Shown here: piece by piece, positions 1-49,042 of the stretch
How positions within the stretch are numbered: position 1 is the first letter of the stretch
Layout: each line of letters starts with the position of its first letter
Source: Plantactinospora sp. BC1
GTDB lineage: Bacteria > Actinomycetota > Actinomycetes > Mycobacteriales > Micromonosporaceae
NCBI RefSeq assembly: GCF_003030345.1
Contig: NZ_CP028158.1
Location: 6,386,001-6,450,000, forward strand
Direction of reading: 5' to 3'
DNA length: 64,000 nt
Translations under genes and position numbers: made by a program
The notes under the pieces: generated by a model
What the model was told of the DNA's origin: nothing
The model's database searches: none
The model's input: only the letters and a program-made list of their open reading frames with translations

Positions 1-156
1 AGCGTCACGGTTGCGTCGCTTACCGTACCCCTGTCGGTCGATCTCGTGTCCTGACGGACGGCCCGAAACCGTTCGAACCTTTGGCGCTCAGCCCATTGCC
101 GTTGCCCGCCCCAGTAACCGTTCGATAGCGTCTGGTAGCCGAACGGAGGGTTGTTT

Positions 157-918
157 GTGAGCCTGGCGCAGGTCGCTGCCTCGCTCTCGGCGGTGCTCCT
201 CGACATCGCCGGGCTTCGGGCACAGATCGCGGCCAACGCCAAGGCGGTAGCCGGAAGAACCGAAACCCTCGTCGCCCTGACCCAGGGCAGCCGGCATCCC
301 TCGGTCGAACAGGCTATCCGGAACGGCGCCGCGACGCTGGAGCGGCTACGGGAGGCCGATCAACAGGCTGCCGGTGCGGTGGCGGCGATCGTGGAGTACG
401 GGCGGGCCATCGGCATCGATCTGCCGGCGCCCGCCCAACCAGGTCCGAGTTCACCGGCCCCCCGGCCGCGACGCTCGGATCCGGAAGCGTCAGTCGAATC
501 CACGCCCTCCGACGCGATTGCCGCGATCGGGCGAAGCCTTCCGGTTCGGGCCAGCGCACGGGACCGCACCACCGGGATGTTCGCCGGTGAACTCATTGTC
601 AGCGGCGAAGATCCTGCGACGGTAGCCGACCTTCGCCCGCTCCCTGGTGGCGGATGGCCGGACTCCGTCATCAGCCACGTGGAGAGCCATGTCGCGGCAC
701 GGATGCGTCGGCAGAACCTGTCAGAGGGCGAAGTCGTACTCAACAACATCACCTGCGGTAACCGCGGATTCGACGCCGACTGGCCCGCGACCTGCGAACG
801 CTATATTCGCGACCTGTTGCCGGCCGGATCCCGGCTGACCGTCTGGGCGACGCCGGACGGCGGCGCGACCTGGTGGACGCGGACCTACCGAGGTACGGGT
901 GAGAGGATAAAGAAGTGA
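157..918 (+). CDS. SCP1.201/DddA-like cytidine deaminase toxin
   Basis: Predicted 253-aa polymorphic toxin. Residues 1-90 are a mostly helical alanine-rich N-terminus resembling small-helical type VII secretion leaders. Residues 92-125 are a Pro/Ser linker. The C-terminal ~85 residues match the SCP1.201-like deaminase fold (DddA family, which deaminates cytosine in double-stranded DNA): an H-V-E motif (H174, E176), then a strand ending in N-N, Cys200 and Cys213 as zinc ligands, then L-L-P-A-G-S-x-L-T-V. The GTG at 157 is chosen because GGAGGG at 145-150 sits six bases upstream; the TTG at 151 would touch it. The stop overlaps the next start by GTGA. Seen: motifs and coupling. Inferred: DNA as substrate and secretion by a type VII system. 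Confidence 0.8.
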   Translation: MSLAQVAASLSAVLLDIAGLRAQIAANAKAVAGRTETLVALTQGSRHPSVEQAIRNGAATLERLREADQQAAGAVAAIVEYGRAIGIDLPAPAQPGPSSPAPRPRRSDPEASVESTPSDAIAAIGRSLPVRASARDRTTGMFAGELIVSGEDPATVADLRPLPGGGWPDSVISHVESHVAARMRRQNLSEGEVVLNNITCGNRGFDADWPATCERYIRDLLPAGSRLTVWATPDGGATWWTRTYRGTGERIKK

Positions 919-1307
919 CATACCGGGTCAGTTACGACATGGACGAAGAGACTCTGCCCGATGCCGAGGCTGTTTCCGCCTTCTTCGACAAACGGGCACA
1001 CCGGATCGCCCCGCACGGCCGCCGAGCGAACACGTACTGGATCGGCCCGGCCGGCGGCGAGGACGTTCTGCGGGTGGACCTGGACTACGACGCGGGCCGC
1101 GCGGCACTGCGCTGGCTCCCCGACAACAGCCACGGCGTGGAACTGGGGCCGGGTGCCCCCATCGTGGTCCTCGAATCCTCCGATCATCCGCCGGTCACCA
1201 TCCCCGGCAACCTGGCTCGGGTCTCGATCGACCTGGCCCGTGCGGCCGTCGCCGCCTACATCCGGACCGGGCAACGTCCATCCACCGTCGCGTGGTCCGC
1301 CGGCTGA
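915..1307 (+). CDS. Imm1-family immunity protein
   Basis: Predicted 130-aa soluble acidic protein, translationally coupled to the deaminase toxin through a GTGA overlap. The pattern fits Imm1 immunity proteins: an N-terminal Y-x-V-S-Y segment, a central strand-rich part with G-G-E-D-V-L-R-V-D and a conserved Trp, and a C-terminal helix followed by T-G-Q-R-P-S-T-V-A-W. Imm1 proteins commonly accompany SCP1.201-type deaminases in actinobacteria. Its likely job is to bind and block the deaminase in the producing cell. There is no signal peptide, so cytoplasmic action is expected. Family assignment rests on motif recall and context, not on an alignment. Confidence 0.75.
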   Translation: MTYRVSYDMDEETLPDAEAVSAFFDKRAHRIAPHGRRANTYWIGPAGGEDVLRVDLDYDAGRAALRWLPDNSHGVELGPGAPIVVLESSDHPPVTIPGNLARVSIDLARAAVAAYIRTGQRPSTVAWSAG

Positions 1308-2604: not shown

Positions 2605-3954
2605 ATGAACGTTCATCCAGGCTCAGGACCGGCGATCCCCAAAAACTTCTGGGAGCGAGATGATATCCGTCCGGCCCTCGCCAAGCGAGATGTTGCAACC
2701 GTGTTCCGATTTCTACAACGGTGCGGTGTATCTCAGCGGCATATAGCAGCCTTGACCGGCCAGTCACAGTCAGAGATCTCCGAGATCATAAAAGGGCGCC
2801 AGGTAATGGCGTACGACGTACTCCTCCGCATCGCCGAAGGTCTCAGCATTCCTCGTGGCTATATGGGGTTGGCATCCAGTACGGATCACGGCGAGCAAAG
2901 TTCGATGTCGGCCGCAGTCACCATCAGTAGTTGGTCCGCGAAACAGTCGCTTGCACGCTCGGCGCAAGTCGTAGTCGGCGATGTCGCCTCCAACATCTGG
3001 ACTCAGCCACTACGCCTGGAGTCCACGCCGGTCCCCGAGCAAATAGGTCTCGTGGACGTCGACCGACTCCGGAACATAGCCGCCGGCCTACGTGCGCTCG
3101 ACTATCAGTTCGGCGGTGGCTACTGCCGGGACGCGGTCGGCGCCCAGGTCCGATGGGCGCAGCAACTTCTGACGTGCAAGCAGGAGGATGCGGTTAAGCG
3201 CGTGTTGCACATCGCGCTCGCGGATCTCCACAACCTCGCAGGGTGGACCTCGTTCGACGTCGGTCTGGACATCTCTGCCAAGGAGCACTTTGTGCGCGCC
3301 CTTGAGCAGGCGAAACACGCCCAAGAGCCGTCACTAATGGCCAAGGCGCTCTACTGTCTCGGCCGCCTCCACCTGCACCATCACCTGCTGCCCGAAGCAT
3401 TGAAATTCTTCCAGCTCGGTCAGATTGCCGCACAGGAGTCGGGATCCGAACTGGCCGTGGCGTTGCTCTGTGCCAATGAGGCATGGACATACGGCCTACT
3501 CGGCGACGAGGGTCAGGTGCTCAAGTCCGCCGGCCGCGCAGAAGACGAGTTCTCCCGCGCACACGAGAGCAAGGCACCAACCTGGATGACCTTCTTCACC
3601 AGGGCAGATTTGAACGCATGCATCGCGATGGCCAAGGCGTCCCTGCCGCAGGCTCCACCCCGACACAGGCAGGCAGCGATCGCCGGCTTCCATCTGAGCC
3701 TCTCCATGAGGGCAGAGCACATGGCGCGAAGCCGAGCGTTCGAGCTGACTGCCCTCGCGAGGCTGCACCTGATGGACGGCGATTTTGATCATGGCTCGGC
3801 TGTGGGTCACCTGGCCGTCGACGCGGCGCAACAGGTGCGGTCGTCACGTGTCCTTGACCGGCTGACGCCGCTGCTCACAGAGGCCCAGCGACATCGGCAC
3901 CATGCCGACGTGCTGTGCCTCCAAGAAAGGATTGCTACGCTGCGCGAGGTATGA
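2605..3954 (+). CDS. XRE-type HTH regulator with TPR-like C-terminus
   Basis: Predicted 449-aa cytoplasmic regulator. Residues about 30-85 form an XRE-like helix-turn-helix (V-S-Q-R-H-I-A-A-L-T-G, then S-E-I-S-E-I-I-K-G-R). The remaining ~350 residues are all-helical with repeated A-L-x2-A and L-x2-A-x4 patterns resembling tetratricopeptide repeats, as in large actinobacterial HTH-TPR regulators. The ATG at 2605 is preceded by GGAGA at 2596-2600; the open frame upstream is not coding in character. It is joined to the following kinase gene by an ATGA overlap, an arrangement common in Micromonospora and Streptomyces. GC content is lower than in the flanking core genes. The ligand and targets are unknown. 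Confidence 0.8.
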   Translation: MNVHPGSGPAIPKNFWERDDIRPALAKRDVATVFRFLQRCGVSQRHIAALTGQSQSEISEIIKGRQVMAYDVLLRIAEGLSIPRGYMGLASSTDHGEQSSMSAAVTISSWSAKQSLARSAQVVVGDVASNIWTQPLRLESTPVPEQIGLVDVDRLRNIAAGLRALDYQFGGGYCRDAVGAQVRWAQQLLTCKQEDAVKRVLHIALADLHNLAGWTSFDVGLDISAKEHFVRALEQAKHAQEPSLMAKALYCLGRLHLHHHLLPEALKFFQLGQIAAQESGSELAVALLCANEAWTYGLLGDEGQVLKSAGRAEDEFSRAHESKAPTWMTFFTRADLNACIAMAKASLPQAPPRHRQAAIAGFHLSLSMRAEHMARSRAFELTALARLHLMDGDFDHGSAVGHLAVDAAQQVRSSRVLDRLTPLLTEAQRHRHHADVLCLQERIATLREV

Positions 3955-4862
3955 GCGCGCATGCTGACCCCCTACAAGGTCGCCTCGGACCGGCCAGGTT
4001 GAAGATGATCGTGGCTGCCACATGCCGCGAGACAGGGCTTGACCCAACCGACGCCACTCTGATCAAGTTCACCAACAACGCCGTCTTCCGGCTACCCCGA
4101 GAGTCTGTCGTGCTGCGAATCGCAGGTTCGGCGACGATGCGCAACCGGGTGACTAAGGTGTTGCAGGTCACTAACTGGCTTGCGAAACACAACTTCCCCG
4201 CCGTACGCCCCCTAAAGAGCATCGAGCAACCGCTGCTTATCGATGGCGATGTTGTCACCCTTTGGAAACAGGTACCCGAGGGTGGGCCACCGGCCAACGG
4301 AAGGCATCTCGGCGAAATACTCAAACAGCTCCATCATATCGCCGACAGGCCACCAATGCTCCCACTCTGGGACCCGATCAGCAGCATCCGCAGCAGACTC
4401 GATGAAGCAGAAATACTTGGCGCCGAAAATTACGCTCGACTACTTGACGTAAGCAGTGAAATCGAGAGTGACCTGAGTGGCCTCGCATACGATCTGCCGC
4501 CAGGCTTGATTCACGGCGACGCGACCGTCGCGAACCTCATTACAGGAAACACCCATCCGATTTTATGCGATTTTGACGCAGCAAGTTTGGGCCCACGCGA
4601 ATGGGATCTGACGCCCGTGGCGACCGGCCATCTTCGCTTTGAGCCAACAGGAAACAACCAATCACTAATAGTCGAAGCCTATGGATTCGACATCACGGAA
4701 TGGCCCGGCTTTTCTGTCCTGCGGCGTCTTCGAGAGCTGCAATTGGTCACAAGCGTTCTGCCTGTCTTGCAGAGCAATTCAAGCCTCCAACCGCAATGGC
4801 AACACCGGTTAAGGACTTTCCTTGGCAAAGACACTGGGCAACGTTGGCACCTGTACGGATAG
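3951..4862 (+). CDS. APH-family phosphotransferase (aminoglycoside phosphotransferase-like)
   Basis: Predicted 303-aa kinase-fold protein. The catalytic loop H-G-D-x4-N is at residues 188-195 and the metal-binding D-F-D at 207-209, typical of the APH/choline kinase family. An N-terminal lobe with V-V-L-R-I-A (residues 53-58) supplies the nucleotide-binding part. The start is ATG 3951, overlapping the HTH-TPR stop (ATGA), so the two are probably co-expressed and functionally linked. The real substrate is unknown: members phosphorylate antibiotics, sugars, amino alcohols or proteins. DNA here is visibly AT-richer than the genome core, which suggests acquisition. The gene ends convergent with the methylase gene, with a 49-bp gap that shows no clear hairpin. 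Confidence 0.75.
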   Translation: MSAHADPLQGRLGPARLKMIVAATCRETGLDPTDATLIKFTNNAVFRLPRESVVLRIAGSATMRNRVTKVLQVTNWLAKHNFPAVRPLKSIEQPLLIDGDVVTLWKQVPEGGPPANGRHLGEILKQLHHIADRPPMLPLWDPISSIRSRLDEAEILGAENYARLLDVSSEIESDLSGLAYDLPPGLIHGDATVANLITGNTHPILCDFDAASLGPREWDLTPVATGHLRFEPTGNNQSLIVEAYGFDITEWPGFSVLRRLRELQLVTSVLPVLQSNSSLQPQWQHRLRTFLGKDTGQRWHLYG

Positions 4863-4911: not shown

Positions 4912-7704
4912 TCAGTCGAGATCCTCGAAATCGAACGCCCTCTGACCATCGGTAGCATCGCCATTGGTGGGCACACTCTTAGCTGACATAATGTCTGACC
5001 AGGACGTTACCAAGCTATTGAAGCGGAGTGCGGTCTGGGGCCATCTATTCCTGGCGGCACCGAATAACAAATAAGAAAGCTCTCTGACTGCATCCACGTT
5101 GACTCGCTTCTCAAGCCTTAACATCAACGCACCAGCCGCCTGTACCCCTTGTTCCTCCAGCGTCCTAGACAGGTGAAGTGCGCCCTCCCATACTGTCGGC
5201 CGGTCGTCGCGCTCTGGATCGTACCTCGGATCAAGTTCGTTTGGCGCCACAAGACATGCCTTACCGGCACGGGCTCGTGCAACTCGCGCCCGCTCGAGGC
5301 CCCCTAGCGATATATTCAAAGCTCTTGCCAGCGTTTCCGCGTCACCAGAAGTACCCTCATCAAACCCGTAGCCTTCGAACCATTTGACACACCAACGAGT
5401 GACGGGGTCAAAATCTCCCTCCTGCTCCGAAAGTACCTCTGCTAAAACCTCGTTGATCAAGATGAGGGCGGTATGCACACGCATTGTCGCGCCACTTGGC
5501 TCCGAGACCCTCGCATAACGAGAAAATACCTTCATCCCGGGCCCAATTGCGGCCTGAGCCAAATCAACTGGCGCGATATTCTTGTGCTGTAGCTCGCGCA
5601 GCGCTCCTGGCAGTTCCTCCTCTAGTGCACCAATAAAGGTCCGCCGGTCTACGACTTCAGCATCCTTGGGGCGCGGTCGGAGCACGAGAACGACTGAAGA
5701 TGCCAAGGCATTAGAACCCACATCGCGAACCCGACCGGATCGCTCGCTACGAACAGGCCATGTTCCGGTCACGGTCCAACCCGCGTCAATCATTCCCTCA
5801 AGAAGAGTCTGCCAGCCAGTCGACACCTCACCTTCGTTGGATTGCTCCGATTGCTTGTAGGCGTAATATACCGTGAGTGGAACCTCGGAATTGGCCTGCC
5901 TCCTAGCGGCCGAGAATACCGCTCTGAAGCCGTCCTCGAAAAAGTCGTCCGCCGCCTTAGCGCCACCATGTCGAGCCGGATCCGCTACCAACTCGTCGGC
6001 CTTCGGCACAAGCAGCGTCTGCATCAAGGTGCCCGCGATGTCGCCCAACGCTTGCCGAAGCCATACGTAGTAGAAGTCAGAAAGACTCGCATACCCGACA
6101 TTGCTGTAATATGGTGGATCAGTTGAGACCGCGAGCCCCTGGTACTCGCGGGCTTTCGCGTCTCGCTGGACGGCAACGCCTGCTGAACGCGAGGGCAGGA
6201 ATGCAAGCACTTTTGATACCCAGCTCGCGCTAGTGCCAATTTCCGCCGGCCCTACATAGAAGGGGTTCGCCTCAGCGAAGTCCCAACTCATGGAGATCGT
6301 CTGGAGTTTGAAGAGCCCGCCAATTCCTTCTTTACTCGGCGCAGGATTCCACATGTTCAAACGAGTCATTGAGCCACAGGTCCGACTGAATGCAATCGCT
6401 AGATACAACGCCACAGTGTCAGCATAAGCGACCGAATCAGTACCGCCGTCCGCCAATCGGGAACCCGCGAGACGCCCAGTCGCAAGGATCGTTTGCAGTA
6501 CCTGACTGCGAACCTCTTGAACAAGATCCCGGATGTACACGAGCGTCGTTAGCTGACGATTTGTGAAGAGATCGACATGGCGCGTCATGCCATATCCCTG
6601 TACCCGGAAGCCGAGCGCCTGTTCGGGCAACTCAGTATCCGGAACATCGGCGGGGCGGGGGACAGTGGCAGCAATCAAATGTTCGTCAGTGGGCGCGAGG
6701 TAGGTACGTCGCCGATTCCCTTCAACAGCAAGCGCCATGAGTTGCTCGGCTAACCGGCCCTCCTTGCCCTCGGTCCGAATATAGACCAAAGGCACGACAG
6801 TATCGCAGCCGATACAAAAGGCACGGTTATCGCCTACGGTTCCGTCACTCAGCTTCGTCGGAGCCTGGCGTACGTCGTGGCCGATGGAGAATTCGACACG
6901 GCCGTTGACGACGGATGGGACGACGTACGCCTCCTTGCCCTTCTTCTTGCCGAGCCACCAGGAGCGGACCAGCGGCATCATGATGCCGCAGGCGGGATTG
7001 GGACACTTCACGGTGCGGGCCCAGATCCATGCGATGACGGTGGCCTCCGAGCCGTCCGGCAGCTTCGCCTTCGGATACAGGTGCCCGATGCGCTTCTCCG
7101 CCTCGTCGCGCATCCACTGGCCATACCGGCGTACGTCCTCGGCCAGTCCGGTGGCGCCCGGCCAGCCGCCGAGCTTCGACTCGGCCGCGCCGGGAAAGAC
7201 CGGCGGCATGCCGGCCCACTTCGGCGGGATCTCGATCAGTGCCTTGTTGATGAGCACCGCCACCGGGTTCAGGTCCGAGGCGTGTGCCTCCAGGCCGAGC
7301 CGCTGCGCCTCCAGCGGGATCGTGCCGCCGCCCGCGAACGGGTCCAGGATCGGCGGAGGGTTGCCGTCGCAGGACTTCCAGATCTCGGCCCGCGCCTTGG
7401 CCAGCACTCGCTCGTCGTTGGAGTTCTCCCACTTCACCAGCTCGCGGATGATGTCGAAGAGCCGCTCCCGCTCGACCTGCTGTGCCTCCGATGTGGGGAA
7501 CTGGTCGGGATGCGCCGACGGATCGTCGACGAGTTGGGCGAAGAGGACCGCCCGTGCGGCAGCCAGCGGCCGGCGGGCCCACCAGAGGTGCAGGGTCGAG
7601 GGGTGGCCGTGCCGGATCGACTTCTCCCGCGCCGCCTCGCGGTTGATGTCCTCCAGCGGCAGCGCAACCTCGATCAGCTTGCGCTTGTACGGCTGCTTCC
7701 CCAT
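4912..7704 (-). CDS. DUF1156-containing Zn-ribbon DNA methylase
   Basis: Predicted 930-aa SAM-dependent DNA methyltransferase of the COG1743/DUF1156 type. The N-terminus carries the DUF1156 signature (K-L-I-E-V-A-L-P-L, then R-H-G-H-P-S-T-L-H-L-W-W-A-R-R-P). The SAM motif D-P-F-A-G-G-G-T is at 121-128, Zn-ribbon cysteines at 234-239 and 297-300, and the catalytic D-P-P-Y-Y at 529-533, which indicates amino (N6-A or N4-C) methylation. ATG 7704 is chosen for its strong GGGAGGGGG ribosome site. The family occurs in anti-phage operons with large helicases, and here a SNF2-type helicase lies 1 kb away. Odd: the last two thirds of the gene are much poorer in GC than the first third, changing near 6850. 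Confidence 0.85.
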   Translation of the reverse strand: MGKQPYKRKLIEVALPLEDINREAAREKSIRHGHPSTLHLWWARRPLAAARAVLFAQLVDDPSAHPDQFPTSEAQQVERERLFDIIRELVKWENSNDERVLAKARAEIWKSCDGNPPPILDPFAGGGTIPLEAQRLGLEAHASDLNPVAVLINKALIEIPPKWAGMPPVFPGAAESKLGGWPGATGLAEDVRRYGQWMRDEAEKRIGHLYPKAKLPDGSEATVIAWIWARTVKCPNPACGIMMPLVRSWWLGKKKGKEAYVVPSVVNGRVEFSIGHDVRQAPTKLSDGTVGDNRAFCIGCDTVVPLVYIRTEGKEGRLAEQLMALAVEGNRRRTYLAPTDEHLIAATVPRPADVPDTELPEQALGFRVQGYGMTRHVDLFTNRQLTTLVYIRDLVQEVRSQVLQTILATGRLAGSRLADGGTDSVAYADTVALYLAIAFSRTCGSMTRLNMWNPAPSKEGIGGLFKLQTISMSWDFAEANPFYVGPAEIGTSASWVSKVLAFLPSRSAGVAVQRDAKAREYQGLAVSTDPPYYSNVGYASLSDFYYVWLRQALGDIAGTLMQTLLVPKADELVADPARHGGAKAADDFFEDGFRAVFSAARRQANSEVPLTVYYAYKQSEQSNEGEVSTGWQTLLEGMIDAGWTVTGTWPVRSERSGRVRDVGSNALASSVVLVLRPRPKDAEVVDRRTFIGALEEELPGALRELQHKNIAPVDLAQAAIGPGMKVFSRYARVSEPSGATMRVHTALILINEVLAEVLSEQEGDFDPVTRWCVKWFEGYGFDEGTSGDAETLARALNISLGGLERARVARARAGKACLVAPNELDPRYDPERDDRPTVWEGALHLSRTLEEQGVQAAGALMLRLEKRVNVDAVRELSYLLFGAARNRWPQTALRFNSLVTSWSDIMSAKSVPTNGDATDGQRAFDFEDLD

Positions 7705-7883
7705 ACGTCCCCCTCCCGAGCCCACACGCGGCGTCAGCACGATACCGCCACCGTCCCGAACCGCCTCCGAGACTGTCTGCTTGCGGTCAGCTACCGCAAC
7801 AAAATCCCCTGTTCGGCACCAAATGCCACCAGGTCGGCTCGCCGCAATCGCGAAGCAGTGGATTGACCTTCAGTAACGGAACA

Positions 7884-7924
7884 CTCACTCTCGATTCGCG
7901 AAACGACCGACTGGAGAGAGTGAG
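7884..7924 (+). promoter_or_regulatory. inverted repeat over the ribosome site of the RNase H-like gene
   Basis: CTCACTCTC at 7884-7892 is the exact reverse complement of GAGAGTGAG at 7916-7924, with a 23-bp spacer. The second arm overlaps the purine-rich ribosome-binding region just before GTG 7931. If transcribed, the stem could hide the ribosome site; as DNA it could be an operator between the divergent methylase and RNase H-like genes. Either role is inferred. Confidence 0.35.
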
Positions 7925-7930
7925 GCGGGC

Positions 7931-8743
7931 GTGACCCAGCCGGATGCGACCACCGAACCCCAAGCAAGAATCTGCTGCAACTGCTACCTCGTGACCGTGC
8001 CCGAGGACGGGACCTGGCGACACTCTGCCGAGGCCCTGCTCAAGTTTCCGTCGAACATTTGCGACGAAACTCGTCCCGGGCCGAAGGCGGGGCCCCGAGA
8101 CATCCGGTCCGGTCGGGGCAGCATCAGACAAGTCAAGGCCGACCCGTTCATGGAGGACAAGGGGAGCGTCGAAGTCCCCGGCTGGCAGCGTGACGGTCAA
8201 CCGCTGGTCATCGGCACCGATTGCTCGTACCGGAAACGTCGCAACGCCGATCGGCCCCCATACGGCGGGCCGACCTGCTGGGGGTACGTCGCCGCCAACG
8301 GCAACTATGGCTTTGGCGGCGTCTTTATGCCCCGCCGGATCGGCGGCGACCCGGTGAGCAACGGCGAGATGCGGGCCGTCTTCTGGGCCGTCCACCGGTT
8401 GGTCCCACAGCACCGCGTCGTGCTGGTGACCGACTCGATGGACACCCTGGAACTGATCGAGGAGTGGCGTACCGGCAGCACCCGGATGCCGCGCGGCTAC
8501 ACGGTGCACCGGGAGAGCTGGCGGACTGCCAAGTTGGAGTTGCTGCGCCGCAAAGTCGTGGAGCACTCCGAGCTCATCGCCGTTCGCTGGGTACGTGGCC
8601 ACACCGGCCACCCGCTGAACGAAGGCGCTGACGCGCTGGCGAAGTTCGCCGGCCTGTGGGCCACCGGACGGGTCTCGGAGGACGTGGCGAAGGCAGACGC
8701 CTATCGCACCGCCGCCGCCGTACTCGGCCGGTTCCGGCAGTAG
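7931..8743 (+). CDS. RNase H-fold protein
   Basis: Predicted 270-aa protein. The N-terminal ~90 residues have a C-C-x-C cluster (15-18) and no recognised domain. Residues ~92-240 fit RNase H type 1: D97 in G-T-D-C-S, E146 in N-G-E-M-R, D168 in V-T-D-S, H224 in R-G-H-T-G-H and D234 in E-G-A-D-A-L-A. All acidic catalytic positions are kept, so it is probably an active RNA:DNA-hybrid nuclease. It is divergent from the methylase and its stop is only 4 bp from the convergent helicase stop. The position between two putative defence genes suggests a linked role, but it could be an independent rnhA-like gene. Confidence 0.75.
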   Translation: MTQPDATTEPQARICCNCYLVTVPEDGTWRHSAEALLKFPSNICDETRPGPKAGPRDIRSGRGSIRQVKADPFMEDKGSVEVPGWQRDGQPLVIGTDCSYRKRRNADRPPYGGPTCWGYVAANGNYGFGGVFMPRRIGGDPVSNGEMRAVFWAVHRLVPQHRVVLVTDSMDTLELIEEWRTGSTRMPRGYTVHRESWRTAKLELLRRKVVEHSELIAVRWVRGHTGHPLNEGADALAKFAGLWATGRVSEDVAKADAYRTAAAVLGRFRQ

Positions 8744-8747
8744 GCGA

Positions 8748-11700
8748 TTACGACGGCTCCCGGCCGAGTTGCCACATCTTCGGCCAACTGAACCGCACCC
8801 CGTCGACCAGGGCCGACACCCGCTCCCCCGCGAACGGGTCATGCACATAGCGCACCTGGTCGCCGGCCGGGCCGTCCGGGTGCAGCGCCACCAGGGCCAG
8901 CCGGTAGCGGTCGGCGTTCTGGCCCACCCGGATCTCGTTGTTGGTGACGAAGAAGTCCTCCGCGCCGTCGACCCGGCCCTTCACCTCGATGTGCACCAGG
9001 TGGCCGTCGAGGGTGCGTGAACGGATGTCGTACCCCGGATTGTTGTGTGCCATCTCCTCGGGTTCGCGGCCGAGCCGCCGCTCGGCCGCGAGCACCGCGT
9101 CGACCGCGCGCCGCGCCGAGGTCATCGTCTCCGTCGGGTACGTCGAAGCCGCCGCTCCGGCCAGACCGTCCAGCAACCCCTGCGGCACCACCACGGCGAG
9201 CGCCCCGACGACCGGTGGCCGGGCGTGCAGGTGCCCCTCCCGGTCCAGCTCGGCGAGCCGGCGTTCCAGTCGCCGCTCCAGTTCGGTGGCCCGTGCCTCG
9301 GCGGCCCGGGGCTGGATCCGCGGCTTCCGACCGTCACTGACCAGCGTGGCCAGCCGCTGCGCCTCGGTGTACCAGTGGTTGATCTCGGTGGCGAGCCGCT
9401 CACGCACCAGCCGGCGGGTCCGCTCGATCTCCGCTGCGCGCCGCTCGCTGACCTCCGCGTACCACTGCGGCAGCTCGACCCCGGCGGCCCACTGCTCGGC
9501 GGTCCGGCTCGCCTCGGCCAGCCACGGTGCCGAGGTCGCCTCGGACAGGCCCGCCCGTTCGGCGTCCGTGGCCGGCGCGTAGTCGAGGAACGGCGCCGTG
9601 CCCGGTCGGGACCTGCCGTCCTGCCACAGCTCGACGTAGCTGAACCGGCGTGCCACCATCCGGTCGTTGCCGTCGACGATCTCCTCGCGGATGGCCACCA
9701 ACAGCCGGGGCTGCTCGGTGCGGTCCAGCCGGTCGACCAGGACGCAGCCCCGCTCCAGCGCGGGGGTATAACGCTTGATGGTCTGCCCGATCACCGCGTC
9801 GTGCAGCGGATGACCGGGGGCGAGCAACTCGGCGCTGACCTGGTCTTCGACCCTGACTCTCGCGCGGTCGAAGCAGACCCGCTCATACCGGGCGACCACC
9901 GGGCCGGCCGGTCCCCGCTCCTCGCGCACCAGGTTCGGCACATGTGAAATCTGATACCTGCCCGGCTCCCGGGGGCCGAGCCGGCCACCCAACCGGCTGA
10001 ACGCGTCCCGGAAGAACCCCTCGATGTAGTGCGGCTGGAGGCGACGGGCCCGCGCCTCCTCCATCCGCAGCCTGATCCGCTCGACGTCGGCCAGCGAAAG
10101 CAGGTCCCGGTGCAGCGCCCGGTCGGCGATGAGCTTCTTGACGCCCTCGCCCACCCGATCGTCGATGACCTTGTTGAGGTGTTCCCGGACCTCCGGCAGC
10201 TCCCCGGTCCGGATCGCCTGGACCAGCAGCTCCCGCAGCGGCTGGCCCTCGAACGCCTCGCCGAGCACGTCGAAGACCTGGCCGCCGAGATCCCGCGCCT
10301 GCTCCTCCAGCTTGGCCAGCAGCCGCAGGAAGACGTCGCCCTCCCGGGTGTTCACGGCGACGAGATTCCACAGGTGGCACATTTCGGTCTGGCCGATTCG
10401 GTGCACCCGGCCGAACCGCTGCTCGATCCGGTTCGGGTTCCAGGGCAGGTCGTAGTTGACCATCAGGTGCGCCCGCTGGAGGTTCAGACCCTCCCCCGCC
10501 GCGTCCGTGGCGACCAGGATCACGCAGGTCGGGTCCGAGGTGAACCGCACCTGCGTCGCCTTGCGCTCCTCCCGGCGTACGCCGCCGTGGATCGACACCA
10601 CCGCCTCCGGGCGGCCCAGCAGGGTGCCAATCCGCTCGACCAGATAGTTGAGCGTGTCCCGGTGCTCGGTGAAGACGATCAGTTTGCGCGGGTCGCCGTT
10701 GCCGTCCCGCAGCTCCGGGTTGTCCTGCAACAGGCCGCGAAGCTGCGTCCACTTCCGGTCCGTCTCCGCGTGCCGGACCCGTCGGGCGATCGCCACCAGA
10801 TTCCGGAGTACGGCAATCTCCTGGCGCAGCTCGGCGGCGGACCGGGCGGCGGTGGCCGCGTCGACGACCTCCTCCTCCATGCTCTCCCGCTGCTCCGCGT
10901 CCAGGTCGTCGAGCAGGTCGTCCGGGTCCGCGTCCCCGAGCAGCCGATCGGCGGCGTCGGGCGACGGCGTCCTGTTCAGCGTCTCCTTGAGCCGCTGCTC
11001 CAACCGCTGCTGCCGGCGCTCCAGCGAACGCAGGATCGCCTCGGGGCTGGACGCCAGCCGACGCTGGAGCACGGTCAGCGCGAACCCGACGGTGTTGCCC
11101 CGGCGTGCCTCGCCCACACTTCGGAGCTGGTCGACCCGGTTCCACTCCCGCCGCACATAGTCGGTGACCGCCTCGTAGAGGCCGCTCTCCGCACTGGAAA
11201 GCTCGTAGTCCACCGTGTAGGCCGCCCGCTTGGGAAAGAGCGGCCTGCCCTCGAAGGTGAGCAGCTCCTCCTTCACCCGGCGCAGCAACACGCCGTCGGC
11301 CCGTGGCGCATGGCCACGCGCCCGGCCCTCGAACCGATCCGGATCCACCAGGGCCAGGAAGAGATGGAAGTCGTCCTCCTTGCCGGCGTGCGGAGTGGCG
11401 GTCATCAGCAGCAGGTGCTGGCTGACCCGCCCCAGGAGCTGCCCCAACTGGTATCGACGGGTGGTCTTGAGTTCGGCGCCGAAGTAGTGCGCCGACATCC
11501 GGTGTGCCTCGTCTACCACCACAAGATCCCAGTCGGTGGCTTCCAACTGGGTGAGCAGTCCCTCGTTCCGCGCGAGCTGGTCCATCCTGGCGATCAGCCA
11601 AGGATGCTCCGCGAAGACGCTGTCGCCGAGCGCCGTCGCGTTGATCAGGTCTCCGGTCAGCAGCCGGAACGGCAGGCCGAACTTTTCCCGCAGCTCGTCC

Positions 11701-12197
11701 TGCCACTGTTCGACCAGCCCGCCGGGCGCGACGATAAGGCAGCGCCCCAGGTCGCCACGGAGCAGCAGCTCCTTCATGTAGAGACCAGCCATGATCGTCT
11801 TGCCCGCGCCCGGGTCGTCGGCAAGCACGAACCGCAGCGGCACCTTGTCGAGCATGTGGCCGTAGACCGCCTCGATCTGATGCGGCAGCGGCTCCAGGTC
11901 GCTGGTGGTGACCGCGACCATTCCGTCGGACTGGGCGGCGCATTGGATCCGTAGCGCCTCGGCCGCGAGCTTGAACTCCGCCGGATCCGCATCGAACGCC
12001 GCGACCCGAGGCGCTTCCTCCGTCAGGCCGGACTCGTCGGAGCGGAGCATGATCCGGTGGTCGGGTCGTTCTCCCGGCGCCTGGTAGACGACGAGGATCG
12101 AGTCGGGCCCCATCGGGGTCACCGCGATGACCTCGACCACCTTGTCCACGACAATGCCACGTACCCGTACGCTCCGGTCGAGGTCCTCCAGCCGCAC
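8748..12197 (-). CDS. SNF2-type DEAD/DEAH helicase with C-terminal DUF3883 domain
   Basis: Predicted 1149-aa superfamily 2 ATPase. Walker A D-D-P-G-A-G-K-T is at 127-134, D-E-A-H at 229-232, then T-A-T-P-H-A-G, and motif VI Q-R-F-G-R-V-H-R-I-G-Q. A long charged linker follows. The C-terminal ~100 residues contain G-Y-D-I...H-I-E-V-K-G-R, matching DUF3883, whose D...E-x-K pattern resembles the PD-(D/E)xK nuclease fold. The start is GTG 12197. SNF2/DUF3883 helicases partner methylases in several anti-phage systems (DrmD of DISARM is a SNF2 helicase); no DrmA, DrmB or DrmC is present here. Together with the DUF1156 methylase it may form a restriction-like module. GC content resembles the host. 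Confidence 0.85.
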   Translation of the reverse strand: MRLEDLDRSVRVRGIVVDKVVEVIAVTPMGPDSILVVYQAPGERPDHRIMLRSDESGLTEEAPRVAAFDADPAEFKLAAEALRIQCAAQSDGMVAVTTSDLEPLPHQIEAVYGHMLDKVPLRFVLADDPGAGKTIMAGLYMKELLLRGDLGRCLIVAPGGLVEQWQDELREKFGLPFRLLTGDLINATALGDSVFAEHPWLIARMDQLARNEGLLTQLEATDWDLVVVDEAHRMSAHYFGAELKTTRRYQLGQLLGRVSQHLLLMTATPHAGKEDDFHLFLALVDPDRFEGRARGHAPRADGVLLRRVKEELLTFEGRPLFPKRAAYTVDYELSSAESGLYEAVTDYVRREWNRVDQLRSVGEARRGNTVGFALTVLQRRLASSPEAILRSLERRQQRLEQRLKETLNRTPSPDAADRLLGDADPDDLLDDLDAEQRESMEEEVVDAATAARSAAELRQEIAVLRNLVAIARRVRHAETDRKWTQLRGLLQDNPELRDGNGDPRKLIVFTEHRDTLNYLVERIGTLLGRPEAVVSIHGGVRREERKATQVRFTSDPTCVILVATDAAGEGLNLQRAHLMVNYDLPWNPNRIEQRFGRVHRIGQTEMCHLWNLVAVNTREGDVFLRLLAKLEEQARDLGGQVFDVLGEAFEGQPLRELLVQAIRTGELPEVREHLNKVIDDRVGEGVKKLIADRALHRDLLSLADVERIRLRMEEARARRLQPHYIEGFFRDAFSRLGGRLGPREPGRYQISHVPNLVREERGPAGPVVARYERVCFDRARVRVEDQVSAELLAPGHPLHDAVIGQTIKRYTPALERGCVLVDRLDRTEQPRLLVAIREEIVDGNDRMVARRFSYVELWQDGRSRPGTAPFLDYAPATDAERAGLSEATSAPWLAEASRTAEQWAAGVELPQWYAEVSERRAAEIERTRRLVRERLATEINHWYTEAQRLATLVSDGRKPRIQPRAAEARATELERRLERRLAELDREGHLHARPPVVGALAVVVPQGLLDGLAGAAASTYPTETMTSARRAVDAVLAAERRLGREPEEMAHNNPGYDIRSRTLDGHLVHIEVKGRVDGAEDFFVTNNEIRVGQNADRYRLALVALHPDGPAGDQVRYVHDPFAGERVSALVDGVRFSWPKMWQLGREPS

Positions 12198-12300
12198 GTC
12201 GCTTCACCACCTTCACATCCCTGGCCCTTGAACCTTACGGCCGCAAGTCCCCTATGGATGCTGTCCCTACCGAGCAGCGGTACTTGTCGGACACCGCTGC

Positions 12301-13637: not shown

Positions 13638-14051
13638 TTATCCGGCCGGCGGCAGCGCTCCGGCCCAGCCCGAGGTCGCGTCGATCAGTGCCCGGCGCCC
13701 GGTCGTCGCCCCGGTCGCGGCCGGCGGGCCGGCGACGCAGGCGCCCCGGTGACCCTCCCGCTCGCCGCACCGGCCGGCGCCGAGGAGCAGCCGGTCGCAG
13801 AAGACCCGGTACCGCTCGTGCTGGGCGTCCTCGGCCGACACGGTGACCTCGCCGGCATCGAGTTCCGGGAGGAAGGCCAGCGACTCGGCCAGCCGCGCGG
13901 CCAGTTCGGTGGCGGCGTGCAGGGTGTCCACGGCAACCGGAAGGTGGATGACGTGGCCCGGCAGCCCGTCGCCGGGACCGGAACCTCCGGTGGCCGGTCC
14001 TGGCTGACCCAGGGTGGATGACCTCAGATGACCCATGGTGGATGACCTCAC
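13638..14051 (-). CDS. small Cys-rich hypothetical protein, paralogue B
   Basis: Predicted 137 aa if GTG 14051 is the start, or 132 aa from ATG 14036; the start is uncertain because both lie in a 22-bp tandem repeat. It matches the protein at 1386-1664 in H-V-I-H-L-P-V, E-V-T-V-S-A-E-D-A-Q and C-D-R-L-L-x4-R-C-x6-G-x4-C, then adds a tail with an Ala/Thr-rich segment. DNA of the two loci is clearly alike over roughly 170 bp. Unlike copy A, it has no adjoining DivIVA-domain gene. Function unknown. Confidence 0.65.
   Translation of the reverse strand: MRSSTMGHLRSSTLGQPGPATGGSGPGDGLPGHVIHLPVAVDTLHAATELAARLAESLAFLPELDAGEVTVSAEDAQHERYRVFCDRLLLGAGRCGEREGHRGACVAGPPAATGATTGRRALIDATSGWAGALPPAG
14005..14050. 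repeat. 22-bp tandem direct repeat
   Basis: Two copies (14005-14026 and 14029-14050) of TGACCCAGGGTGGATGACCT plus CA, period 24 bp, differing at one position. They cover the two possible starts of the Cys-rich paralogue B, so they duplicate its translation start region or an operator. Confidence 0.7.
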
Positions 14052-47625: not shown

Positions 47626-47710
47626 GACACCAGCCTTCCACTCGGAATCCGTCCGGTCACCGGCTTGCCCACACTCACCACAGGTACGCCCACCATCATC
47701 GGGCCGCTCT

Positions 47711-47939
47711 TCGTTCGCGACTGCGGGGCTCGCAAACCCGGCTCACTCCTCGCGCTCACGGGTTTTCCGTTCGTTCGCGACTGCGGGGCTCGCAAACCCG
47801 GCTCACTCCTCGCGCTCACGGGTTTTCCGTTCGTTCGCGACTGCGGGGCTCGCAAACCCGGCTCACTCCTCGCGCTCACGGGTTTTCCGTTCGTTCGCGA
47901 CTGCGGGGCTCGCAAACCCGGCTCACTCCTCGCGCTCAC
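47711..47939. repeat. 60-bp tandem repeat, 3.8 copies, between murG and murC
   Basis: Three identical 60-bp units (47711-47770, 47771-47830, 47831-47890) and a fourth of 49 bp (47891-47939). The last copy contains the murG stop codon (47936-47938). On the minus strand each unit begins GTGAGCGCGAGGAGTGAGCC, and includes GGGTT-TGCG-AGCCC, which can form a small hairpin. One reading frame stays open through the array with a 20-residue period, but nothing indicates it is translated. The copies are identical, suggesting recent expansion. The rest of the murG-murC gap (47626-47710) shows nothing else. Confidence 0.95.
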
Positions 47940-49042
47940 CGGGCCACCGCCTCGTAGACGAAGTCGAGCAGTGCCTCGTCGCCGTCGCGCCGGCCGTACG
48001 CGGCGGCGGCGGCGCCCATCGCGGCCAGCCGGCGCGGGTCGCGGATCAGCGGGATCACGGTCTGCTCGACCCAGGCCGCCGTCATCTCCGAGTCGTCGAC
48101 CAGCAGCCCGCCGCCGGCCTCGACCACCGGCAGGGCGTTGCGCTTCTGCTCCTGGTTGCTGTGCGGGTACGGCACGTAGACCGTGGGCAGACCGATCGCC
48201 GCCACCTCGGCGCAGGTCATCGCCCCGCCCCGGCCCAGCATCAGGTCGGCGGCGGCGTAGCCCAGCTCCATCTGCGAGAGGTACGGCAGGGTCACGTACG
48301 GCACCGGCAGGTCGGCCGGGACGTGCACCGGCTCGTTGCGGGCGCCGATCACGTGCAGTACCTGCACCCCGGCGGCGGCGAGCGCCTTGGCCGCACCGGC
48401 CACCGCCAGGTTGATCGAGCGGGCGCCCTGCGAACCGCCGGCCACGAAGAGGACCGGCAGGTCCGGGTGCAGGCCGAACTGCCGGCGTGCCGCCGCCCGG
48501 TGCGCGACCCGGTCGATGGTGGTGATGCCGCGTCGCAGCGGCACCCCGACCACCCGGGCGTTTCGCAGCGACTCGGCCTGGGCCGGCTGGTGCGGGAAGC
48601 CGACCGCCACGTGCTTGGTGAACTTCATGCCGAGCCGGTTCGCCACTCCCGGCGGCACGTTCACCTCGTGGATCACGATCGGCAGCTCCCGGCGCCACGC
48701 GGCGAGGTAGGCCGGCACCGAGACGTAGCCGCCGAACCCGATGACGACGTTGGCGCGTACCTCGTCGATCACCTTTCCGGCGGCCCGGGCGGCTTTCCAC
48801 ATCCGGTCCGGCGTACGCATCAGGTTCATGTTGACCGACCGGGGGAGCTGATAGGCCGGGATCTGCCGCAGATCGTAGCCGTGCGGCGGGATCAGGTCGT
48901 TTTCCAACCCTTTCGGGGTGCCGAGGCAGGTGATCCGTACTCCCGGGTCGTGCCGGCGCAGGCAGTCGGCGAAGGCGAGCAACGGGTAGATGTGCCCACC
49001 CGTGCCGCCTCCCGCTAGTACCACCGACCGCAGCGGACCCAT
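47936..49042 (-). CDS. murG: MurG, lipid II-forming N-acetylglucosaminyltransferase
   Basis: Predicted 368-aa GT28 enzyme transferring GlcNAc from UDP-GlcNAc to lipid I at the inner membrane. G-G-T-G-G-H-I-Y-P is at 12-20; G-F-G-G-Y-V-S-V-P, H-E-V-N-V-P-P-G, G-G-S-Q-G-A-R and P-Y-P-H-S-N-Q-E-Q-K are present. The ATG shares a base with the ftsW stop (TGATG). The stop lies in the last unit of the 60-bp repeat array. Confidence 0.96.
   Translation of the reverse strand: MGPLRSVVLAGGGTGGHIYPLLAFADCLRRHDPGVRITCLGTPKGLENDLIPPHGYDLRQIPAYQLPRSVNMNLMRTPDRMWKAARAAGKVIDEVRANVVIGFGGYVSVPAYLAAWRRELPIVIHEVNVPPGVANRLGMKFTKHVAVGFPHQPAQAESLRNARVVGVPLRRGITTIDRVAHRAAARRQFGLHPDLPVLFVAGGSQGARSINLAVAGAAKALAAAGVQVLHVIGARNEPVHVPADLPVPYVTLPYLSQMELGYAAADLMLGRGGAMTCAEVAAIGLPTVYVPYPHSNQEQKRNALPVVEAGGGLLVDDSEMTAAWVEQTVIPLIRDPRRLAAMGAAAAAYGRRDGDEALLDFVYEAVAR

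Follow-up and report, generated by a model that had tools for sequence, protein, structure and literature searches.

A stretch of 64,000 nucleotides from the genome of Plantactinospora sp. BC1, referred to here as the window, carries genes for a DUF1156 methylase, an RNase H-fold protein and a SNF2 helicase, which a sequence-only reading had proposed as a possible new defence module. Judged by homology, these three genes are very probably the right-hand part of a complete Hma anti-phage island severed by the window edge. Hma was described as a three-gene operon of helicase, methylase and ATPase (Payne et al., 2021; PMC8565338) and was called a Type-1 BREX (bacteriophage exclusion)-related (BR) system in 2026 (PMC12839542). 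The main value of the analysis is therefore a correction, in that a seemingly new, reduced module is in all likelihood a known system truncated by the window edge. Judged from its genes, the locus appears largely ordinary and of low novelty, with the RNase H-fold gene as a modest lead. The useful remainder is this small, testable lead, a gene for a zinc-finger-like RNase H-fold protein that lies in an Hma island and whose relative in another genus neighbours a PglW-like gene. The island also supplies a natural series within one genus, from intact through eroded to absent.

Identity and completeness of the Hma genes

The identity of the genes, their completeness, their conserved catalytic motifs and the boundaries of the island are direct observations of the present analysis. 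The genome is a single 8.33-Mb contig in which the window starts at base 6386001. All three Hma components are encoded within approximately 16 kb, in the order hmaA, hmaB and hmaC, followed by a gene for a GmrSD nuclease resembling HEC-05 (HEC, Hma-embedded candidate), with all four genes on the minus strand. One strong homolog each of HmaA, HmaB and DUF499 was found in the whole genome, all three in this block, and the six further HmaA matches are short, cover helicase motifs alone and do not exceed 44 bits.

The gene hmaA (8748..12197, minus strand) encodes a SNF2/SF2 helicase of 1149 amino acids with a C-terminal NOV_C nuclease-like domain. The protein matched the PADLOC helicase model PDLC00659 with 1319.6 bits over residues 1-1125, and its Pfam domains are SNF2-rel, Helicase_C and NOV_C (59.8 bits), the last of which we take to be the same as DUF3883. 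In an alignment of the window protein with 19 relatives, from which the partial copy of G279 was excluded, the Walker-A residue K133, D229 of the DEAH motif and the NOV_C residues D1057, E1071 and K1073 (D...ExK) were identical in all 20 rows. The NOV_C domain of HmaA may correspond to the PD-(D/E)XK nuclease of the Type-1 BR helicases (PMC12839542).

The gene hmaB (4912..7740, minus strand, with a possible alternative start at 7704) encodes a DUF1156 adenine-type DNA methylase of 942 amino acids, which matched PADLOC PDLC00660 with 1045.5 bits over residues 19-922 and Pfam DUF1156 (PF06634) with 109.9 bits. Its DPPY motif at positions 541-544 is identical in 12 of 12 rows of an alignment from which the G270 row was dropped as too short; F135 and G137 are identical in 11 of the 12, the exception being a gap in a truncated row. 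The assignment as an adenine methylase follows PADLOC and PMC12839542 and disagrees with Payne et al. (2021; PMC8565338), where HmaB is called a 5-methylcytosine (m5C) methyltransferase.

The sequence-only reading had stated that DUF499 is absent, which was wrong. A search of the whole genome with the DUF499 profile PF04465 gave a single match at G000:C1:6383891-6385051 (minus strand), and the start codon of hmaC (L012:12634-15966, minus strand) lies 34 bases to the left of window base 1, so that the window edge cut off the gene and made the domain appear to be missing. HmaC is a HEPN-DUF499 ATPase of 1110 amino acids. It matched PADLOC PDLC00662 with 867.3 bits over residues 161-1109, a match that begins after the HEPN part, and contains an N-terminal HEPN_Swt1 domain (97.1 bits) and DUF499 (75.9 bits). 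The P-loop residues K247 and T248 are identical in 13 of 13 rows and the HEPN residues R91 and H96 in 12, the thirteenth row being without that region. The GmrSD gene (L012:10654-12627, minus strand) starts 6 bases past the hmaC stop codon and encodes a GmrSD_N protein of 657 amino acids, with a moderate match to the HEC-05 model of PADLOC (PDLC04151, 138.5 bits).

The three genes of the sequence-only reading are thus real, with reading frames of 942, 270 and 1149 amino acids that are far beyond chance, and their domains had been read correctly. The novelty did not survive the comparison with PADLOC, in which the helicase is HmaA, the methylase HmaB and the neighbour HmaC, that is, a known Hma. 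All three core genes are full length and without stops, and since the catalytic residues of HmaA, HmaB and HmaC are conserved in the alignments with their relatives, the core is intact in sequence.

The RNase H-fold gene between hmaA and hmaB

The third gene, described in the sequence-only reading as lying between the methylase and helicase genes in the opposite orientation, was confirmed there at 7931..8743 (plus strand), tail-to-tail with hmaA at a distance of 4 bases. It encodes 270 amino acids, matches Pfam RNase_H with 42.7 bits and carries an N-terminal CCHC zinc-finger-like motif, which by its pattern is putatively zinc-binding, together with an intact DEDD set, the catalytic set of RNase HI. 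In four aligned members, D97, E146, D168 and D234 as well as C15, C18, H31 and C44 are invariant. The closest solved relative by sequence is E. coli RNase HI (1f21, E 9.9e-6). An AlphaFold2 (AF2) model built from four input sequences had a mean predicted local distance difference test (pLDDT) score of 72.7 (other four models 56-62) and a predicted template modelling (pTM) score of 0.65, and its top Foldseek matches were RNases H (best E 3.3e-6), with 17-24% identity among the 50 matches listed.

Homologs of this protein are rare and were found in 13 of the 300 sampled family genomes at E<=1e-15, that of the window included. Nine of the 13 were aligned, and the other four, which match part of the domain region, were left out. 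The set D97, E146, D168 and D234 is complete in six of the nine, namely the window, Micromonospora chokoriensis (G206), Catellatospora coxensis (G118), G209, G213 and G195; the CCHC residues are common to the first four of these, and the G213 and G195 proteins are without that part as translated. The other three (G275, G104 and G003) keep the N-terminal part and have lost D97, and G104 and G003 are also without the last D (D234). A scan of genome contigs gave 38 loci, most covering the RNase H domain alone, and in a profile search at the level of the class 18 of 394 matched at E<=1e-12, where the matches outside the family start at profile position 79 or later and are without the CCHC part. 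CCHC-bearing members were thus seen solely in the family of the window, presumably the Micromonosporaceae. A phage origin of the gene is unsupported, as no match was found in 50,697 phage records at E<=1e-5; plasmids gave three weak matches (28.8-34.0%) and IMG/VR eight loci, the best with 34% over about 150 residues.

The RNase H could be a working part of the locus, either as a nuclease effector embedded in Hma, like Septu and the HEC candidates in other Hma loci, with RNA:DNA hybrids from the invader as its substrate, or as a defence gene in its own right, a possibility which we regard as tentative. It lies in the island between two core genes, its DEDD residues are intact, and the embedding of defence genes within Hma has been described (PMC12255303; PMC12988326). 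Some of its relatives point in the same direction. The closest relative found, from M. chokoriensis (L068, 43% identity), is encoded tail-to-tail with a PglW-like gene (1597 bits) on the opposite strand, the two being about 40 bases apart; SduA (390 bits) and a weakly matching PycTM (36 bits) are also nearby, and seven of nine other neighbours scanned there gave no PADLOC match. In C. coxensis the homolog follows a GTPase gene after 6 bases, and in G003 (L073:7641-9923, minus strand) a degenerate zinc-finger RNase H is fused to a RAMA domain (78 bits), with a weak CBS match, and is possibly a sensor version.

Against a working part stands the lack of recurrence with Hma, as none of the 20 HmaA loci fetched from relatives carries this RNase H. 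Among 54 fetched loci of RNase H homologs, which include two duplicates and many weak domain matches, L097 alone has an HmaA match, with 30.7% identity over residues 26-285, partial at the end of the locus and about 9 kb from the RNase H. The recurrence that would be expected of a three-gene module is accordingly not seen, and we reject the RNase H as a fourth, conserved gene of Hma. Nor does the protein match any PADLOC model at E<=0.001, and besides the rarity of the homologs, one of the four members with both CCHC and intact DEDD residues, that of G209 (L070), lies amid genes that resemble housekeeping genes as judged by eye. In the literature covered on Hma, on DUF1156 with DUF499 or DUF3883 and on anti-phage RNases H, this RNase H is not reported, which is a weak negative as the preprint defining the HEC candidates lies outside this coverage.

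Since its neighbourhoods are partly those of defence genes and recurrence with HmaA is absent, the RNase H looks like a rare gene that shows a certain affinity for defence islands, and not like an Hma component. Its best reading is as an optional accessory, embedded in the locus without belonging to the core. If it acts in defence, our guess is that its most plausible task would be the cleavage of RNA:DNA hybrids. A more far-reaching idea, which we consider unlikely, is that a mobile anti-phage nuclease has gone unrecognised in the zinc-finger RNase H. It would settle tail-to-tail next to genes of BREX-type machinery, as with HmaA in the window and the PglW-like gene of M. chokoriensis, and would target RNA:DNA hybrids of invading phages, with the degenerate RAMA-fused homolog as its sensor version.

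Island boundaries and Hma loci in relatives

The locus was compared with six other genomes of the genus (G032, G104, G092, G078, G058 and G113). In G032 the match of the left flank extends to window position -5423 and that of the right flank begins again at 12285, the two being 89 bases apart, and in G104 the flank matches lie at -5419 and 12277, 171 bases apart. Because these two congeners are without the whole block, the 17.7 kb from about -5.42 kb to 12.28 kb are an accessory island, with the GmrSD gene at one end, hmaA at the other and the RNase H gene inside. The left match stops at -5435 in G092, where the right one resumes at 13643; G078 sets no island edges, as its left match stops earlier, at -10241, and its right one resumes at 13671. 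No tRNA was found in the window and integrases were not searched for, so that insertion by this route is not established.

Two congeners keep remnants. G058 (L188) retains about the first 132 residues of hmaA (91.7% identity), with a further short match to residue 144 out of frame, the immunity gene Imm1 (91.5%) and the terminal part of the deaminase gene described below; HmaB, HmaC and the GmrSD protein had no match in its 19.5-kb stretch. What remains in G113 (L190) is the 23-residue C-terminal end of the GmrSD protein (82.6%) and a fragment of 87 residues resembling HmaC (45.7%); other genes separate these remnants from the right flank. By their sequence similarity, these are the eroded remains of this Hma island at the position it has in the window, and related genes seem to have occupied the site in no fewer than three genomes of the genus, namely the window, G058 and G113. 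The locus in the window could itself be decaying, with unrelated genes having invaded both junctions of a system that no longer works, as in these two congeners. The two interrupted junctions would agree with this, but the three core genes are full length and stop-free with their catalytic residues intact, which makes decay improbable.

Among the 300 sampled family genomes, 23 have HmaA at E<=1e-100, that of the window included, and 20 HmaA loci of relatives were fetched, with the fragmentary matches of G038 and G154 excluded. In the relatives, genes were called approximately, with a home-made GC-frame script, and neighbours without a family match were named by eye. HmaA, HmaB and HmaC occur together in 12 of the 20 loci, with adjacent A and B in 11 of these (from a slight overlap to about 140 bases between the matches) and an hmaA convergent to B-C in G046. 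Embedded nucleases occur in these loci as well, as a GmrSD-type gene separates B from C in G281 and G258, that of G281 being HEC-06/Orf5-like, and in G213 and G095 a window-like GmrSD gene follows C. After this HEC-05-like gene, G095 (L050:13663-15777) and G213 (L049:4215-6275) have a further gene of about 700 amino acids, which in the L050 copy matches HEC-07 with 104 bits and which has no tblastn match in an 80-kb stretch of the window's own genome.

Several observations weigh against a functional Hma system in the window. The three genes do not form the usual tight operon, as the antisense RNase H gene splits A from B and about 4.9 kb split B from C, and co-expression of hmaA, hmaB and hmaC is uncertain for this reason. 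Since all three components are present, we read the departure from a single operon of adjacent genes as architectural variation. Eight of the 20 loci show HmaA without B and C in the fetched stretch, and when seven of them were extended by about 16 kb on the other side B and C were still not found, the eighth (G027) ending at the contig edge; HmaA alone is therefore no proof of Hma. In the tree, moreover, the HmaA of the window groups in 100/100 with the HmaA-only loci G044, G027 and G017, two of which were checked on both sides and one of which ends at the contig end. HmaB also looks as if its history were a different one, as the GC content at third codon positions (GC3) is 0.69 in HmaB compared with 0.91 in HmaA and 0.90 in HmaC. 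A GC3 of hmaB below that of its neighbours is also seen in the loci of G213, G095, G281, G258 and G229. By path length the HmaC of the window is nearest to those of G213 and G095, on a branch that is not resolved, and by identity its HmaB is nearest to that of G281 (58%), so that the locus may be a mosaic in which hmaB was exchanged.

HmaA could then act alone, as it may in the HmaA-only loci, with HmaB and HmaC as a separate modification unit. The HmaA of the window is indeed closest to that of G044 (64%), within the clade mentioned. However, B and C were found in no other member of this clade, while in the window they stand in canonical order and on the canonical strand, and the ParA-like gene and 136-amino-acid partner that accompany hmaA in G044, G027 and G017 have no match in an 80-kb stretch of the window's own genome, so that we consider an independent HmaA quite unlikely. 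A new, reduced three-gene module without an ATPase, the idea of the sequence-only reading, agrees with what the window alone shows and can practically be dismissed with hmaC 34 bases outside it. The complete Hma island remains the preferred reading.

The HmaA-only loci show arrangements of their own. In G044 (L048/L154), G017 (L051/L155) and G027 (L066), which belong to three genera, the hmaA gene, for which no HmaB or HmaC was found, is divergent from the ParA-like ATPase gene and the gene of the 136-amino-acid protein; PADLOC gives weak PDC-M28B matches alone for the ATPase, and the trio is possibly a distinct HmaA-based system. A SNF2 helicase of about 886 amino acids is encoded divergently to hmaA in six loci, G106 (L055/L156), G064 (L057/L157), G060 (L058/L158), G020 (L062/L159), G281 (L054) and G258 (L056), and that of G106 matches PADLOC DpdE with 881 bits. 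HmaB and HmaC were not found in four of the six loci with this recurrent pair of two helicases.

The interval between hmaB and hmaC contains four annotated genes on the opposite strand and at least one probable small gene on the minus strand; with the RNase H gene, both junctions are thus unusually occupied by opposite-strand genes. The four are a DddA-like deaminase toxin gene (151..918; PF14428, 65.2 bits), the Imm1 immunity gene paired with it (915..1307; PF14430, 28.8 bits, cut-off 22.4), an NsdA-family TPR regulator (2605..3954, start approximate; NF053720, 262.6 bits, cut-off 75) and an APH-family phosphotransferase (3915..4862; Pfam APH, 53 bits), all on the plus strand. At three loci, the window (2605-4862), L054 (4026-6385) and L056 (3982-6455), the pair of NsdA-family regulator and APH-family kinase is convergent with an hma gene at its 3' end, and L054 and L056 (G281 and G258) belong to the genus of M. 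chokoriensis. The APH family is common (128 of the 300 family genomes at E<=1e-20), which makes its occurrence next to Hma in these three loci weak evidence of a link, and the link was rejected. A direct repeat of 76% identity (1408-1625 and 13738-13955) lies within a small minus-strand gene, with one copy in the island and one in the right flank; since all six congeners match the repeat in the right flank, it looks like two paralogous small genes and not like insertion ends. Elsewhere in the window, positions 47710-47942 hold a 113-base tandem duplication of 99% identity.

Proposed mechanism and comparison with known systems

For the family, PMC12839542 infers a defence that resembles restriction, with self marked by the methylase and foreign DNA attacked by the helicase-nuclease; the DUF499 ATPase would build a scanning complex and HEPN would be a last-resort RNase. 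The phage defence role of the HmaA helicase is given there as experimentally confirmed, with reference to its citation 112. Following this literature (PMC12839542) in every biochemical step, HmaB would methylate adenines at a target motif in the host DNA, and HmaC would scan DNA together with the other subunits. HmaA would translocate along unmethylated invading DNA and cut it with its C-terminal PD-(D/E)XK-like domain, and the HEPN RNase of HmaC and the GmrSD protein may serve as backup effectors. The sequence-only reading had suggested the same division of labour between methylase and helicase-nuclease, and this part fits the published picture (PMC12839542); its suggestion of a reduced or distinct system does not hold, as all three Hma components are present.

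Other known systems were considered as homes for these genes and rejected. For DISARM, the helicase scored 370.9 bits against NF038317 (DrmD; cut-off 610), and in PADLOC 386 against DrmD compared with 1320 against HmaA. The methylase reached 109.1 bits against NF042963, the anti-phage-associated DUF1156 protein, with a cut-off of 1000. Dpd as the best home was rejected with scores below the cut-off or far below those for Hma.

The agreement with Hma consists of HmaA, HmaB and HmaC on one strand, with near full-length PADLOC matches and in the A-B-C order of 11 of the 12 complete loci of relatives, whereas the genes form no tight operon here, as the RNase H gene separates A from B and opposite-strand genes separate B from C. 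With the Type-1 BR systems as described in PMC12839542, the locus shares a DUF499 ATPase with N-terminal HEPN, a DUF1156 methylase and a Swi2/Snf2 helicase with a C-terminal nuclease-type domain; in contrast, RNase H is not listed among the auxiliary nucleases in the first part of section 35 of that paper, and a term search did not find it in the main text. Like HEC-05 (cited via PMC12988326), the protein encoded directly after hmaC is a GmrSD_N protein, but it has 657 amino acids compared with the 600 positions of the model, matches it moderately and is encoded after hmaC and not between core genes. The embedded RNase H, finally, has the type 1 RNase H fold and the DEDD set of E. coli RNase HI, but it scores 35.7 bits against the RNase HI equivalog model NF001236, below the cut-off of 160, and differs from the E. 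coli enzyme in its N-terminal CCHC zinc-finger-like part.

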